Virus record (IMG/VR): IMGVR_UViG_3300001282_000083
Span: 1 to 21,698 of that record
DNA from: a virus
Length of the DNA: 21,698 bases
Strand: one strand, 5' to 3'
Both the position numbers and the translations under genes were made by a program. Each line of letters starts with the position of its first letter. Position 1 is the first letter of the stretch. Below, one piece after another: positions 6,444-15,475 of this stretch. Under the pieces are notes generated by a model. The model was given only the letters and a program-made list of their open reading frames with translations, was not told the DNA's origin and ran no database searches.

Positions 6444-6488
6444 AGTTGTCACATTCTAGTACAAAGTATAGACTTTGGCAATAAAAGA

Positions 6489-6497
6489 TGGTATCAT
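6489..6497 (+). promoter_or_regulatory. Extended -10 promoter, probably giving a leaderless transcript
   Basis: TGG (6489-6491) followed by TATCAT (6492-6497) lies six bases before the ATG at 6504, where transcription would be expected to start. There is no Shine-Dalgarno site for that ATG. A second possible promoter sits just upstream (TTGTCA 6447-6452, 17-base spacer, TAGACT 6470-6475). A weak hairpin (CAAAGT-ATAG-ACTTTG, 6463-6478) overlaps it and is not a convincing terminator. Confidence 0.5.
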
Positions 6498-6503
6498 TAC
6501 TAT

Positions 6504-6833
6504 ATGAAATCAATTAAAACATCCGTTGTTGAGGAAACTACCCTTGGGGTCTACATTTGGCAAATGCCAGACGGACGTTGGGTCGGAGACGATGAGGGAA
6601 ACTTTCTCTCTATTTCTGCATTCAAAAATGACCAAAATAGAATCAACGCTCTAAAAGAAGCTGTCAGAGGTTATGGGATACAGACAGGCAAGGCCGTATT
6701 TTTGTCAGGACAAAGAAAGATTAATGACGAAGAATATGAAGAGCAGCAACAGCGTTTGAGGTGGGGACTAACACCAGACCCACTAGATATTGGTGAGTAC
6801 AAAGACAGTCTAAAGAATTTGAGGAACGATTAA
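6504..6833 (+). CDS. Conserved-looking hypothetical protein upstream of portal
   Basis: This 109-aa protein opens with MKSIKTSVVEETTLGVYIWQ and then MPDGRWVGDDEGNFLSI, followed by a charged helical region (QNRINALKEAVRGYG and EEYEEQQQRLRWG). I do not recognise a named domain. Small proteins of this kind are often found directly before the portal gene in actinophages, but their role is unknown to me. Its stop overlaps the portal ATG by one base (TAATG), so the two are translationally coupled. The start is chosen from the extended -10 six bases upstream and the lack of any other start. The mRNA is probably leaderless. Confidence 0.75.
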   Translation: MKSIKTSVVEETTLGVYIWQMPDGRWVGDDEGNFLSISAFKNDQNRINALKEAVRGYGIQTGKAVFLSGQRKINDEEYEEQQQRLRWGLTPDPLDIGEYKDSLKNLRND

Positions 6834-8404
6834 TGTCAGACGCAATTGAAGATAATTTAAATGAAGTATCTGCAGTTCTTTCTGGTGACTTTTTCACAGA
6901 AAGACCAGCGGAAGAATCTGATCCCTTTTATGTAAAGGCTGAAGAGCTTTCTAAGTATCGTGGATTCTCTCCAAACTTTAAGAGAAAGAATACACGTCTT
7001 ATACAAAAGTTTCAGCAGGGTGCAGACGGACAAGCAAGATCAAAGAAGTATGAGCAAGAAATTCTCATGGGTTATGACATCCTTGATGTTATAACACCGC
7101 CATACAACCTAGACTACTTGGCTAAGATTTATGAGGTATCTTCACCACACTTTGCGGCATGTAATGCAAAGGCAGCAAACATTGTTGGGCTTGGCTATGA
7201 CTTTTCGCACACTCGTGCTACTAAAGAAAAGATAGCAGATCTTTCTGATACACCAGAAAGCCTACAAAGATTCCGTGCAAAATTAGAGCGGATGAGAGAA
7301 GACCTATACGACCTACTTGAGTCTATGAACCAAGAGGATACATTCACAGAAACCCTTACAAAGGTATACCTAGATTTTGAAGCCACAGGAAATGGATACA
7401 TTGAGGTTGGCCGTAAAGTAAACGGAGAAATAGGCTTTGTTGGCCATATTCCAGCAACATCTATGCGTGTTAGAAAAGACCGTGATGGATTCGTTCAGGT
7501 AATTGGAAACAAGGTTGTTTTCTTCCGTAACTTCCAAGACAAGGCAACACCAAATCCAATTGGCGATGATGAAAGACCTAACGAGGTTATTCATATTAAG
7601 AAGTACACACCAACAAACGGATATTATGGTGTGCCAGATATTATTCCAGCAAAGACTGCGCTAGCAGGAGATGAATTTGCATCACGCTTTAACCTTGATT
7701 ATTTTGAGAACAAAGCTGTTCCAAGATATATCATTACAGTAAAGGGAGCTACACTTAGCCGTGAAGCTGAGCGTAAGTTGCTTGAGTTCTTCCAGACAAA
7801 CCTTAAGGGTAAGAACCATAGATCTATCTATATTCCGCTACCAGCAGATGATGACGGAAATAAAGTAGAGTTTAAGATGGAAGCTGTTGAAGCGGATGTT
7901 CAAGACTCTTCATTCAACAAATACCGTCAGCAAAATAGAGACGAAATTTTAATTGCTCACAGAACTCCTATCTCAAAGCTAGGACTTCCAGAGGGCGTAT
8001 CCCTTGCAGCAGCAAAGGACGCAGACAAGACATTTAAAGAGCAGGTTGCTAGACCAGCACAAAGAAACCTAGAGAAGAAGCTAAACCGTTTGATTGCAGA
8101 ATTTACGGATGCTTTTGTTTTGAAATTTAATGAACTTACTCTCACAGACGAGGACACACAGTCCAAGATTGATGAGCGTTACCTACGAATGAAGACCATT
8201 GTGCCTAATGAAGTTCGTGCAAGACTTGGTATGCCAGGCATGCCAGGGGGCGATCAGCCAGTTGTCCTAACAGGACAGCAAGCCGCCGACCAAACTGCGA
8301 GGGGAACAGGAAACCGTAGAAGAGATCAGGAAAGAACCGCAAATGCTACTGATTCTAACGGTGAAGCAAGAAATCCTCAAGGTGATGGTCGAGTTGCGCC
8401 CTGA
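6833..8404 (+). CDS. Phage portal protein
   Basis: This 523-aa protein matches the HK97/PBSX type portal family in length and motif order. It has an early segment on the clip/stem side with YEVSSPHFAACNAKAANIVGLG. A mid-protein FEATGNGYIEVGR motif near residues 182-195 is followed by VIHIKKYTPTNGYYGVPDI, a hallmark of this family. A later helix-rich region carries LIAHRTPISKLGLPEG and an acidic-basic helix before the tail. The last 55 residues are disordered and rich in Gly, Gln, Arg and Pro. The portal forms the dodecameric ring at one capsid vertex, through which DNA is packaged by the terminase (not in this window) and later ejected. The ATG overlaps the previous stop. GAGG lies about nine bases upstream. 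Confidence 0.92.
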   Translation: MSDAIEDNLNEVSAVLSGDFFTERPAEESDPFYVKAEELSKYRGFSPNFKRKNTRLIQKFQQGADGQARSKKYEQEILMGYDILDVITPPYNLDYLAKIYEVSSPHFAACNAKAANIVGLGYDFSHTRATKEKIADLSDTPESLQRFRAKLERMREDLYDLLESMNQEDTFTETLTKVYLDFEATGNGYIEVGRKVNGEIGFVGHIPATSMRVRKDRDGFVQVIGNKVVFFRNFQDKATPNPIGDDERPNEVIHIKKYTPTNGYYGVPDIIPAKTALAGDEFASRFNLDYFENKAVPRYIITVKGATLSREAERKLLEFFQTNLKGKNHRSIYIPLPADDDGNKVEFKMEAVEADVQDSSFNKYRQQNRDEILIAHRTPISKLGLPEGVSLAAAKDADKTFKEQVARPAQRNLEKKLNRLIAEFTDAFVLKFNELTLTDEDTQSKIDERYLRMKTIVPNEVRARLGMPGMPGGDQPVVLTGQQAADQTARGTGNRRRDQERTANATDSNGEARNPQGDGRVAP

Positions 8405-8406
8405 TT

Positions 8407-8435
8407 TTGCATTACTAACAAATACTTGATAAAAT
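8407..8435 (+). promoter_or_regulatory. Extended -10 promoter before protease/scaffold gene
   Basis: TTGCAT (8407-8412), a 17-base spacer ending in TGA, and TAAAAT (8430-8435) form a promoter ten bases before the ATG at 8446. The expected start site leaves a leader of only a few bases and no Shine-Dalgarno site. The 41-base gap holds nothing else. Confidence 0.5.
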
Positions 8436-8445
8436 TAGTGTTGCT

Positions 8446-9756
8446 ATGGAAATAAAAAAGGCAAACTGGCATTCCGACGGAGATAGTCTCCGCCTATCGA
8501 TGCCTATCGCAAAAGTCGATAGAGAAAAAAGAATCGTATCGGGTTTCGCCACACTAGACAATATTGATCAGCATGGAGACATTGTTTCTTCAGACGCTTC
8601 TGCTAAAGCATTCGAAAGATTCCGTGGGAATATTCGTGAAATGCATCAGCCACTTGCAGTAGGTAAGATGGTATCGTTCCGCAAGGAAAAACTGTTTGAC
8701 AAGTCAACAGGAAAAGAGTACAGCGGAGTTTTCGTAAATGCATACGTATCAAAGGGTGCACAAGATACTTGGGAAAAAGTTCTTGATGGCACACTATCAG
8801 GTTTCTCAATCGGTGGTAACATTACCAAGGCGGTTGACGAATATAATCCAACACTAGAAAAATCAATCCGTGTAATTAAAGAATATGATCTAACAGAACT
8901 TTCATTGGTAGACAATCCAGCAAACCAACTTTCAAACATTGTTTCTATTGAGAAGACAGTAGACGGAACTGTATTTAAAGGAATTGCTACAGAAGTACAA
9001 GTAGAAAATGTTTTTTACGATAAGGAAACAGACGAAGTTTATTTGTCTACAGAATCAGAATTTACATCACCAACTACAAACAAAAATCTAGAAATGATTG
9101 GTTGGGTAGAAACAGCAGATACAAATAAGTCTGCAGAAATCTCAAGAATCCTTGACGCATACAAGCAGTCTAAGGTACAACCTGATATCGCAAAGCAGGT
9201 TGAAGAAAATCAAAACACAGAAGGAGGTGTTACTGTGGCAGAAGATACAACAACTACCGTTGAAGAGACTACAACTGAGCAAGTTGCTCAAGTTGAAGAA
9301 GTCACAGAAACGGACCTCGCCAAGTCAGCTGATGCTCCAGAAGCACCAGCAACCGAAGAGGCACCGAAAGCAGAAGCTGAAGAAGCTCCTGCTGCTGTTG
9401 AGGAAGCCGCAGACATTTCCGAAGTTGAAGTTGAAGAGACTGACTTTGCAAAAATGTTTGACGAAATGAAAAGCTTCATTTCAACAGAAATTAGCAAGAC
9501 TGCTACTGCAGAAGCAGTATCAAGCCTTGCATCACAGGTTGATCAGAAAATTGCTGAAGTAACCAATAAATATAATGAACTCGCAGAGGTTGTCAATAAC
9601 ATTAAGTCAACTATCTCAGGCGTCGAAAAGAGGGTCGACGGAGTAGAGAAGGATACTGCGATTCGTAAGTCTTCTGATCTGGACGGGTCAGATGTAACAA
9701 TACAAAAAACAAACACTAAGTGGGGCGGGCATTTCCTCAGCGTCCGCAACATCTAA
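8446..9756 (+). CDS. Prohead protease fused to scaffold protein
   Basis: This 436-aa protein has two parts. Residues 1-170 are a phage prohead serine protease of the S78/XkdF-like group. They include KRIVSGFATLDNIDQHGDIV, a candidate catalytic His67 in REMHQP, a candidate Ser121 in LSGFSIGG, and the family signature ELSLVDNPANQ near residue 155. Residues from about 262 form an acidic, Glu/Ala/Thr-rich linker, then a coiled-coil region (SQVDQKIAEVTNKYNELAEV) and a terminal WGGHFLSV, as in scaffold domains. The scaffold directs assembly of the procapsid, and the protease removes it during maturation. The start is an ATG without ribosome site, close to an extended -10. A second, strong internal start at 9235 is listed separately. 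The major capsid gene follows after 33 bases. Confidence 0.85.
   Translation: MEIKKANWHSDGDSLRLSMPIAKVDREKRIVSGFATLDNIDQHGDIVSSDASAKAFERFRGNIREMHQPLAVGKMVSFRKEKLFDKSTGKEYSGVFVNAYVSKGAQDTWEKVLDGTLSGFSIGGNITKAVDEYNPTLEKSIRVIKEYDLTELSLVDNPANQLSNIVSIEKTVDGTVFKGIATEVQVENVFYDKETDEVYLSTESEFTSPTTNKNLEMIGWVETADTNKSAEISRILDAYKQSKVQPDIAKQVEENQNTEGGVTVAEDTTTTVEETTTEQVAQVEEVTETDLAKSADAPEAPATEEAPKAEAEEAPAAVEEAADISEVEVEETDFAKMFDEMKSFISTEISKTATAEAVSSLASQVDQKIAEVTNKYNELAEVVNNIKSTISGVEKRVDGVEKDTAIRKSSDLDGSDVTIQKTNTKWGGHFLSVRNI
9221..9237 (+). promoter_or_regulatory. Internal ribosome-binding site and in-frame GTG start
   Basis: AAGGAGGTG (9221-9229) is a near-perfect complement of the 16S rRNA 3' end and lies five bases before GTG at 9235, which is in frame with the protease gene. 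It falls exactly at the boundary between protease and scaffold parts. It encodes the short EGGV linker in the full-length protein. Confidence 0.65.
9235..9756 (+). CDS. Probable nested scaffold protein (internal start in protease gene)
   Basis: Starting at the in-frame GTG at 9235, preceded by AAGGAGGTG, the product would be 173 aa (AEDTTTTVEET after the start Met) and would consist only of the acidic linker, coiled coil and C-terminal scaffold motif. This parallels lambda, where scaffold Nu3 is made from an internal start within the C protease gene. The internal ribosome site is far stronger than that of the full gene, which has none, fitting the need for much more scaffold than protease. 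The start is directly visible. Its use is inference. Confidence 0.55.
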   Translation: MAEDTTTTVEETTTEQVAQVEEVTETDLAKSADAPEAPATEEAPKAEAEEAPAAVEEAADISEVEVEETDFAKMFDEMKSFISTEISKTATAEAVSSLASQVDQKIAEVTNKYNELAEVVNNIKSTISGVEKRVDGVEKDTAIRKSSDLDGSDVTIQKTNTKWGGHFLSVRNI

Positions 9757-9789
9757 ATCTATAAAAATAACGGAGGTGAAAATAAAAAA

Positions 9790-10776
9790 ATGAGCGATAT
9801 TCTACAAAAAGTAGTAGACACAACTAACGTTGGATCAGCAAATGGTGGTCTTCTCAATACTGAGCAAGCAAACCGTTTCATTGATTACATGTTTGATGCT
9901 ACAATCCTTGCCCGTGCAGCCAGAACAGTTCGTATGCGTTCTAACACTGCCGACATTGATAAGGTAGGTGTTGGTACTAGATTGATGACAGTTGCTACAG
10001 AAGCTACCCAAACAGGTGCTAATGCAGCAGTTACATTCTCCAAGATTTCTCTTACCACAAAGAAACTACGTCTTGACTGGGAACTTTCAAGCGAAGCACT
10101 AGAAGATAACATCGAAGGTGCAGACCTAGAAGACCACATTGCTCGCCTAATGGCTACTCAAGCTGGTAACGATATTGAAGATCTTTTGATCAACGGTGTT
10201 GGAACTGGTACAGGCCTAATGTCAGCATTCGCTGGATTCCGTGCACTCGCACTTGGTTCAGCTAACGTTGTAAACGCAGGCGGTGCAAACATCAGCAAGG
10301 CAGTATTCAACAATGCAATCAAGGCTATGCCACGTAAGTACAAGCAGCGTCGTAATGAACTACGCTTCTTTACAGGTTCAAACCTTGTGCAGGATTATCT
10401 CTATAACTTGACAACCATTGGTAACGGTGGAACTCCAGAAGACATTGCATCGTCAATTCTTCGTGGAAATCCAAACGGACCAGCAGGTGCGCCAGGTGGA
10501 GTTACTCCATTCGCATTTGGTATTCCAGTCGTTGAGGTTCCTCTAATCGATGAAACTCGTGACGGAGATTACTCAGGTGCTACAGGTGACCATGGTGATA
10601 TCCACTTGACATTTGCTAACAACTTTGTTGTTGGTGTCAAGCGTGAAATCCAGGTTTACCGTGAATTCAAGCCAAAGAAGGATACAATTGAATACACAAT
10701 GTTCGTAAGAACAGGGTGTGCAATTGAAAACCCAGAGGCTTTCGTTGTGGTTAAGAACGTAAAAGTTTCAGCCTAA
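9790..10776 (+). CDS. Major capsid protein (HK97-fold)
   Basis: This 328-aa protein has the size and sequence pattern of HK97-like major capsid proteins. An N-terminal arm (FIDYMFDATILARAARTVRM) is followed by the E-loop/strand region with TFSKISLTTKKLRLDWELS. The spine-helix segment is LEDHIARLMATQAGNDIEDL, followed by LINGVGTGTGL. A later P and A domain has FAFGIPVVEVPLI and a conserved C-terminal FANNFVVGVKREIQVYREF. The protein forms the icosahedral shell. CGGAGGTGA lies upstream with a spacing of 10-13 bases, longer than usual but with strong complementarity. Arg is mostly CGT/CGC here, unlike the AGA-rich neighbours, which fits high expression. A terminator follows the gene. Confidence 0.93.
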   Translation: MSDILQKVVDTTNVGSANGGLLNTEQANRFIDYMFDATILARAARTVRMRSNTADIDKVGVGTRLMTVATEATQTGANAAVTFSKISLTTKKLRLDWELSSEALEDNIEGADLEDHIARLMATQAGNDIEDLLINGVGTGTGLMSAFAGFRALALGSANVVNAGGANISKAVFNNAIKAMPRKYKQRRNELRFFTGSNLVQDYLYNLTTIGNGGTPEDIASSILRGNPNGPAGAPGGVTPFAFGIPVVEVPLIDETRDGDYSGATGDHGDIHLTFANNFVVGVKREIQVYREFKPKKDTIEYTMFVRTGCAIENPEAFVVVKNVKVSA

Positions 10777-10798: not shown

Positions 10799-10834
10799 CT
10801 AAAGGGGAACCCCATAAAAAGGGTTCCCCTTTAG
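10799..10834 (+). terminator. Strong hairpin terminator after major capsid gene
   Basis: CTAAAGGGGAACCC (10799-10812) pairs perfectly with GGGTTCCCCTTTAG (10821-10834), a 14-bp stem with an 8-base A-rich loop. The T tract is short (TTT), and the A run on the left side would let it work in both directions. Confidence 0.85.
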
Positions 10835-10843
10835 TCATATGGG

Positions 10844-10852
10844 TGCTATAAT
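10844..10852 (+). promoter_or_regulatory. Extended -10 promoter for the connector genes
   Basis: TGC-TATAAT (10844-10852) follows the terminator by ten bases and precedes the ATG at 10881, which has AGGAG close upstream. No -35 is evident at the 17-base position, which lies in the terminator stem. Confidence 0.6.
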
Positions 10853-14667: not shown

Positions 14668-14705
14668 AGACCCCCTCCAGAAATGGCGGGGGTCTTGTCT
14701 TTTTA
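14668..14705 (+). terminator. GAAA-capped hairpin terminator after major tail gene
   Basis: AGACCCCC (14668-14675) pairs with GGGGGTCT (14688-14695). An inner CCA-GAAA-TGG (14677-14686) continues the helix with one mismatch and a GNRA-type tetraloop. TTGTCTTTTTAT follows. This is a classical intrinsic terminator. Confidence 0.88.
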
Positions 14706-14723
14706 TATTATTGTTGCTATAAT
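14695..14723 (+). promoter_or_regulatory. Strong promoter overlapping the terminator tail
   Basis: TTGTCT (14695-14700), a 17-base spacer ending in TGC, and TATAAT (14718-14723) form the best promoter of the window. Its -35 shares bases with the terminator's right arm and T tract. AGGAGGT (14738-14744) follows for the TTG start at 14749. Confidence 0.7.
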
Positions 14724-14748: not shown

Positions 14749-15084
14749 TTGGCTACCCAGCTATACGATATTGTAGAAGTAGAACTACAGGACGGCAGAA
14801 AGGTAACATTAAAACCGCTGCCAATTAAACGACTAAAGGAATTTATGAAGGTCGTTACAAAATTAGATACAGTAAAAGATGAAGAAGAAGCAATTGATAT
14901 TTTTATCGAGGCTTGTGCAATCGCTTTGAAGAAAAGCTTGCCAGAACTAGCCGATAATAAAGAGGCTCTAGAGGAAGCTCTGGACGTTCCGACTATTTGG
15001 AAAATTATGGAGGTCTGCGGAGGTATTAAGCTAGGCGACCCAAATTTAATAGCGGCAGCGGCCAAGATGAGTGGAACCAACTAA
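14749..15084 (+). CDS. Tail assembly chaperone, short form
   Basis: This 111-aa protein starts at a TTG with AGGAGGT upstream. The pattern VTLKPLPIKRLKEFMKVVTKL, an acidic helix region, and DVPTIWKIMEVCGGIKLGDP near the C-terminus match the first open frame of siphophage tail assembly chaperones (G of the lambda G/GT pair). It probably coats the tape measure protein during tube assembly. A -1 slippery site near its 3' end joins it to the following open frame. The position directly before the tape measure gene is universal for this pair. Confidence 0.88.
   Translation: MATQLYDIVEVELQDGRKVTLKPLPIKRLKEFMKVVTKLDTVKDEEEAIDIFIEACAIALKKSLPELADNKEALEEALDVPTIWKIMEVCGGIKLGDPNLIAAAAKMSGTN
15039..15048 (+). 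other. Programmed -1 frameshift site (overlapping CCCAAAT and AAATTTA)
   Basis: In the frame of the short chaperone the codons read GAC CCA AAT TTA. Both C CCA AAT and A AAT TTA fit the X XXY YYZ rule, so two slippery heptamers overlap in CCCAAATTTA. The -1 frame is open from 15030 (after TAA at 15027-15029) to 15461. No strong downstream stem is obvious to me. Confidence 0.8.
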
Positions 15085-15461
15085 CAAATAAAACCAAGTC
15101 TTCCACAACGTGGGAGAATCTTGATCTCGCTGCCTTAGAAAAACAAGCTTTCCTTCTTGGTATTTGGAAAAACTACGAGGAATTAGAAGAGAGTATTTCT
15201 CTCGTTGAACTTATTCATACTCTAGAAGAGGCGAATAAGAAAGAGTACGAGGACAAGAAGTTCCTTGCTGCCCTACAAGGGGTGGACTTGGATGAAGGAA
15301 ATTCTTCAGGTGCTAAAACATTTGAAGATATTAGGAGGGAAGCACTGGGAGACGATCCTGCTACAAACGATGTGGCTAACCTTAAGGGATCACTTGCAAG
15401 ACAAGAAGGCTTTGGTGTAGGCCAAGGTTTAATGTACGAAGAGTGGGACGCTAGGGCGTAA
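15048..15461 (+). CDS. Tail assembly chaperone, frameshifted extension (GT-like T domain)
   Basis: This -1 frame segment has no usable start codon of its own near its beginning and would be read after slippage at 15039-15048. That gives a fusion of 100 residues of the short form plus about 137 residues. It reads TWENLDLAALEKQAFLLGIW, then YEELEESISLVELIHTLEE, KKEYEDKKFLAALQGVDLDE, and ends GFGVGQGLMYEEWDARA. These are recurrent features of the second chaperone frame in actinophages. The fusion is thought to bind the major tail protein and bring it to the tape measure. The region is listed here because it would otherwise look like a gap between 15085 and 15490. Confidence 0.85.
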   Translation, partial: NSGSGQDEWNQLTNKTKSSTTWENLDLAALEKQAFLLGIWKNYEELEESISLVELIHTLEEANKKEYEDKKFLAALQGVDLDEGNSSGAKTFEDIRREALGDDPATNDVANLKGSLARQEGFGVGQGLMYEEWDARA

Positions 15462-15475
15462 TAGGATCGAAAATC

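Follow-up and report, generated by a model that had tools for sequence, protein, structure and literature searches.

A conserved in-frame start within the head maturation protease gene of actinophages and their relatives predicts a nested scaffold gene below a probably leaderless outer start

How does a head protease gene work whose own start codon has no ribosome site, and which carries a strong one in its middle? A 21,698-base virus contig (the window, i.e., the whole stretch of DNA analyzed) raises this question with its head maturation protease gene, located between the portal gene (6833-8404) and the major capsid protein gene (Table 1). In phage lambda, an in-frame internal start in the head protease gene C yields the free scaffold Nu3 from the same 3′ part. 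An earlier note on this DNA had proposed that the same logic is combined here with a leaderless outer start, and both parts of the proposal can be examined in relatives of the gene.

An internal start between the protease and predicted scaffold parts

The internal site consists of the Shine-Dalgarno (SD) sequence AAGGAGGTG, a five-base gap (TTACT, 9230-9234) and GTG (9235-9237). The GTG is in frame with the outer ATG, 263 codons away, and both frames end at the same stop codon (9754-9756). The duplex energy of the site with the anti-SD tail of 16S rRNA, -13.5 kcal/mol, is the best of the 19 starts in the window. Among the 198 internal in-frame ATG, GTG and TTG codons of all window genes it also ranks first, the runner-up being at -9.8. 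The description of an AAGGAGG-type site five bases ahead of an in-frame GTG was thus correct. In single-strand folds of the window, the SD sequence itself is open (0.73 unpaired) but the start codon is often paired (0.07 unpaired), which counts against a nested start.

The N-terminal part is an S78 protease, with matches to Peptidase_S78 (PF04586, 28.5 bits, cut-off 21) and S78_2 (PF14550, 26.6 bits, cut-off 24) above the curated cut-offs and a match to phrog_9427 (Table 1). The S78 match ends at residue 172; behind it lie a further, small beta domain and a helix. A fold model was built with 67 relatives, a single-sequence prediction (pLDDT 37) having been discarded. It is folded to residue 244 and disordered from 245 to 331, after which come the two helices given in Table 1 and a loose tail. 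The best Foldseek match of the folded part was the Epstein-Barr virus protease (1o6e, E 6e-4, probability 1.00), followed by the proteases of VZV (1vzv, probability 1.00) and HCMV; TM-scores were low (0.33-0.38 of the target), limiting the assemblin-like resemblance to the core. His67 and Ser121 are invariant in the 67 sequences and are presumably the catalytic residues, by the known family pattern. The small beta domain at residues 185 to 225 has a zinc-ribbon-like CxxC pattern in the Streptomyces phages and in the L198 and L199 clades; the cysteines are lost in the window's clade, and the domain is absent in NiceHouse.

The inner start corresponds to residue 264, in the disordered linker about 20 residues past the end of the modeled fold. 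It therefore lies between the protease and scaffold parts, as the earlier note had it, but it does not coincide with the end of the protease domain, whether this is placed at the end of the S78 match or near residue 244. The nested product is acidic, its helices are coiled-coil-like in the model, and its C-terminal region is conserved. In the capsid protein, the PF05065 match begins at residue 19 of 328, leaving no room for an N-terminal delta domain. From its position, helical content, acidity and conserved C terminus, and from the delta-less capsid protein, we infer that the nested product is the scaffold. Such features would be consistent with a scaffold whose C terminus binds the capsid protein, by analogy with herpesviruses.

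Table 1. Features of the protease, scaffold and capsid unit in the window
Feature	Positions	Strand	Description
Promoter of the protease unit	8407..8435	+	TTGCAT 8407-8412, 17-nt spacer, TAAAAT 8430-8435, 10 nt before the ATG; position conserved in relatives, spacer drifts
Full-length head maturation protease-scaffold, 436 aa	8446..9756	+	Start without SD, probably leaderless; Peptidase_S78 2e-6, phrog_9427 9e-128
Internal SD AAGGAGGTG	9221..9229	+	Kept in 230/233 distinct relatives; other codon phase in the L198 clade; synonymous minimum
Predicted nested scaffold gene, GTG start	9235..9756	+	173 aa, 18.6 kDa, pI 4.2; helices 334-351 and 356-403 (full-protein numbering), conserved C-terminal tail
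SD GGAGGTG and major capsid protein gene	9773..10776	+	CDS 9790-10776, 328 aa; PF05065 residues 19-322; SD energy -10.8
Hairpin 3′ of the capsid gene, where the transcription unit likely ends	10799..10834	+	15-pair stem (the scan lists it for the other strand)

Conservation of the internal start

Sources of relatives were virus contigs, isolate phages and genome assemblies; 233 distinct reading frames were kept, ranging from near identity to about 30% protein identity and including phages of Streptomyces (Stanwilliamsviridae) and of Rhodococcus. In 230 of them, across about ten clades, an SD motif lies at the same place with GTG or ATG in frame behind it, and no other codon occurs at the start position. 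The remaining three have an interrupted outer frame and retain the inner start codon. A TAA at codon 242 (L129) and an early stop (L390) both leave the inner site intact; in L354 the stop directly precedes the inner ATG and the SD sequence is weaker. Protease and scaffold are thus separate reading frames in L129 and L354. The two contigs with a stop that splits the protease from the scaffold (L129/L047 and L354) represent natural variants or sequence errors. The earlier note had named the loss of AAGGAGG and the GTG in relatives that keep the protein as an observation that would speak against a nested start; no such case occurs among the 233 distinct relatives.

Conservation of this kind might reflect the protein, i.e., a Glu-Gly-Gly linker, or chance, with only the full-length product being made and the scaffold freed by proteolysis like that of phage P2 gpO. 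EGG is indeed common in many relatives, and related head proteases of known phages cleave their own C-terminal part. However, the residues over the motif vary (EGG, QGG, KGG, DGG, KEE, EEE, KED, KGD) while AAGGAG(G) is constant. The L198 clade (about 60 distinct frames) has the motif in a shifted codon phase, so that it encodes K/E-E-E/D instead of E-G-G; other relatives retain AAGGAGG or GGAGG although Gln, Lys or Asp has replaced the Glu. The reading in another phase shows that the DNA, not the protein, is conserved. Moreover, the start position is solely GTG or ATG, and synonymous diversity is minimal at the inner start. In 85 freshwater sequences, codons 256 to 265 are nearly without synonymous variation (Gly GGA in 85/85, Gly GGT in 83/85, Val GTG in 81/81), and they contain the lowest four-codon mean of synonymous diversity in the gene (median ratio 0.75). 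Conservation of the linker followed by proteolysis is thus very improbable. A chance origin of the inner SD sequence was rejected on the basis of the synonymous minimum, the conservation in two phases and the top rank among the 198 internal starts.

Free scaffold might also, or mainly, be made from an internal promoter of its own 5′ of codon 264, as for UL26.5. Consistent with this, the L107 clade shows synonymous constraint around codons 235 to 265, including a TTGCCT as in the outer -35 box. This stretch is kept neither in the window nor in the Streptomyces and Rhodococcus phages, though, no -10 box was found at the proper distance, and the promoter score is low at the inner start (median 7). 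We looked for a scaffold promoter inside the protease gene and found none, and we regard this source of free scaffold as decidedly unlikely. The unusually low synonymous diversity at codons 235 to 250 of the L107 clade, 45 to 90 nt 5′ of the inner start (TTGCCT...ATTGCAAAACAGGC), is not explained by the ribosome site, and the window's own clade does not share it.

The outer start and the probable transcription unit

The SD energy of the outer ATG, +0.6, is the weakest of the 19 starts in the window, bearing out the claim that the full-length start has no ribosome site. The medians over 122 sequences are +0.15 for the outer start, -13.5 for the inner start, -8.6 for the capsid gene and -6.3 for the portal gene. 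No strong SD sequence precedes the outer ATG in any clade, the best value in the larger set being -6.5. The outer start codon is ATG in all 232 relatives tabulated.

Nearly all relatives have a -35 box (TTTGC in most) 5′ of this ATG and, after a spacer of 16 to 18 nt, a -10 box that ends 6 to 10 nt before the start codon; the -10 boxes read TATAAT, TAAAAT, TATTAT or are weaker. When 62 distinct upstream regions from a single clade are compared, information is mostly 1.4 to 2 bits in the box columns and much lower in most spacer columns. A single upstream region has a promoter score reached by 9% of shuffles, which is not significant alone, and a general promoter scan of such AT-rich sequence was uninformative (45 found, 42 expected). 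The assignment is therefore based on the consensus of the boxes and their conservation across relatives. A strict version of the motif has few occurrences in eight relative records of 27 to 131 kb and marks the protease gene in six of them.

With the predicted promoter in this position, transcription would start at the outer ATG itself or no more than about four nt 5′ of it. A leader of about 3 nt is possible where 10 nt separate the -10 box from the ATG, as in the window and the L199 clade. The outer start thus has the layout of a leaderless mRNA, i.e., a -10 box 6 to 10 nt before an ATG without an SD sequence, and the promoter found at this distance in every clade supports the leaderless start that had been suggested.

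Alternatively, the nested start could be real and the outer gene not leaderless but weakly translated from read-through mRNA, through upstream coupling or SD-independent initiation, the boxes being an AT-rich coincidence. The shuffling result for a single region is in line with this, as is the StarPlatinum group, with weak boxes (4 of 6) located within the preceding gene. The annotated protease start of that group overlaps the end of the preceding gene, so that translational coupling is possible and may contribute there. In the window, by contrast, 41 nt separate the portal stop from the outer ATG, which is far for coupling. An AT-rich coincidence hardly accounts for boxes that keep a near-fixed distance in all clades despite a variable spacer, for the rarity of the strict motif in the larger records, or for an invariant ATG, as expected of leaderless starts. 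A non-leaderless outer gene thus appears unlikely.

The annotated protease starts of Rhodococcus phage Trina (L090) and Streptomyces phages Tomas (L088) and StarPlatinum (L084) overlap or abut the -10 box. The downstream ATG homologous to that of the other relatives seems the likelier start.

The protease gene does not have the only leaderless-like start of the region, an idea that we rejected. The 109-aa gene before the portal gene (start 6504) also has a conserved promoter (at 6470-6504; TGGTAAAAT/TATCAT, with TTGACA in many relatives) that ends 6 to 8 nt before the ATG, giving a second such start in the head region. For the tape measure gene, GATAAT before 15491 suggested a leaderless start, which was likewise rejected, as most relatives have an ordinary SD sequence there. 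Judging from these patterns, leaderless-like starts appear to be a habit of the head region, with ordinary sites at the capsid, tail and tape measure genes.

A strong hairpin lies behind the capsid gene in 91/91 distinct downstream regions of relatives, followed in the examples examined by a new promoter-like TATAAT (10847-10852 in the window). Because of these two elements, the mRNA likely comprises the protease-scaffold, the nested scaffold and the capsid protein. A similar layout occurs at 14685-14723, where a hairpin with a T-run directly precedes an extended -10 promoter (TTGTCT-17-TATAAT with TG); the gene at 14749, with a TTG start, has a leader with an SD sequence. After the ORF at 14749-15084, an open frame that lacks a start codon extends in the -1 frame to the tape measure gene, as expected for a programmed frameshift. 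This region (14749-15463) is likely a tail assembly chaperone pair.

Proposed expression of the unit and known systems

The conservation in relatives and the promoter position support a nested logic of the lambda C/Nu3 type combined with a putative leaderless outer start. As expected of genes of this type, an internal SD sequence and in-frame start kept in relatives lie between the protease and scaffold parts, and the capsid protein has no delta domain of its own. It is very probable that one mRNA for protease, scaffold and capsid protein carries a leaderless start for the protease-scaffold and an SD-dependent start for the scaffold. Transcription from a dedicated sigma-70-type promoter would begin at the outer ATG or a few nt from it, and the protease-scaffold would be initiated as a leaderless message by ribosomes entering at the 5′ end of the mRNA. 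Other ribosomes would enter at the strong internal SD sequence and GTG, giving free scaffold, and then at the SD sequence of the capsid gene, the unit ending at the hairpin behind it. The shared C-terminal part would carry a few protease molecules into the prohead together with free scaffold, as lambda, Mu and the herpesviruses suggest. On mRNA reading through from the portal gene, only the inner start would be usable, which would yield scaffold without protease.

Translation of leaderless mRNAs is less efficient in E. coli but robust in mycobacteria (PMC7148126). It is plausible that the protease-scaffold fusion is a minor product relative to free scaffold, but this reading does not fix their ratio, since such mRNAs can be efficient templates in actinobacteria (PMC7148126). 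We give an even chance to the broader proposal that throughout a group of actinophages and their relatives this ratio is set by two initiation modes on one mRNA, so that it can shift with the promoter used (the leaderless one of the unit or portal read-through) and with the state of the host ribosomes.

Nested scaffolds as such are known from lambda Nu3, Mu Z and herpesvirus UL26.5. Lambda C is a different type of protease expressed from a long late mRNA, in contrast to the S78 fold, dedicated promoter and leaderless-like outer start found here. In phage Mu I/Z, the in-frame scaffold start lies within the protease gene, as here, and one was proposed for gene 27 of Pseudomonas phage PaMx73, at a Val start with an SD sequence (Val 177 behind ACGAGGA; PMC4378225). 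That paper describes no leaderless outer start, and the likeness drawn here is one of layout. In herpesviruses, the assemblin-fold protease UL26 is fused to the scaffold, which is also made alone from the in-frame overlapping 3′ gene UL26.5, and the scaffold C terminus binds the capsid protein (PMC4498786). UL26.5 is a separate overlapping gene, unlike the internal ribosome site on the mRNA here. Leaderless SigA-like promoters have been predicted in cluster O mycobacteriophages (PMC4351075), but not reported for the protease gene nor combined with a nested start.

What is new, then, is that a nested start is combined with a putative leaderless outer start, that a large phage group conserves this combination and that annotations lack it. 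Twelve isolate regions, from phages of Streptomyces (Stanwilliamsviridae) and of Rhodococcus, are annotated here just as "capsid maturation protease" or "head maturation protease". A search of the open literature, with most subscription papers outside its scope, found no description of a nested start in this phage group.

With the nested start, a large group of phages would gain a capsid gene that annotations have missed, and the annotated protease starts of Trina, Tomas and StarPlatinum, which run into the -10 box, may need correction. The unit would offer a natural system with leaderless and SD-dependent initiation on one mRNA, and it would strengthen the parallel between phages and herpesviruses in head assembly.
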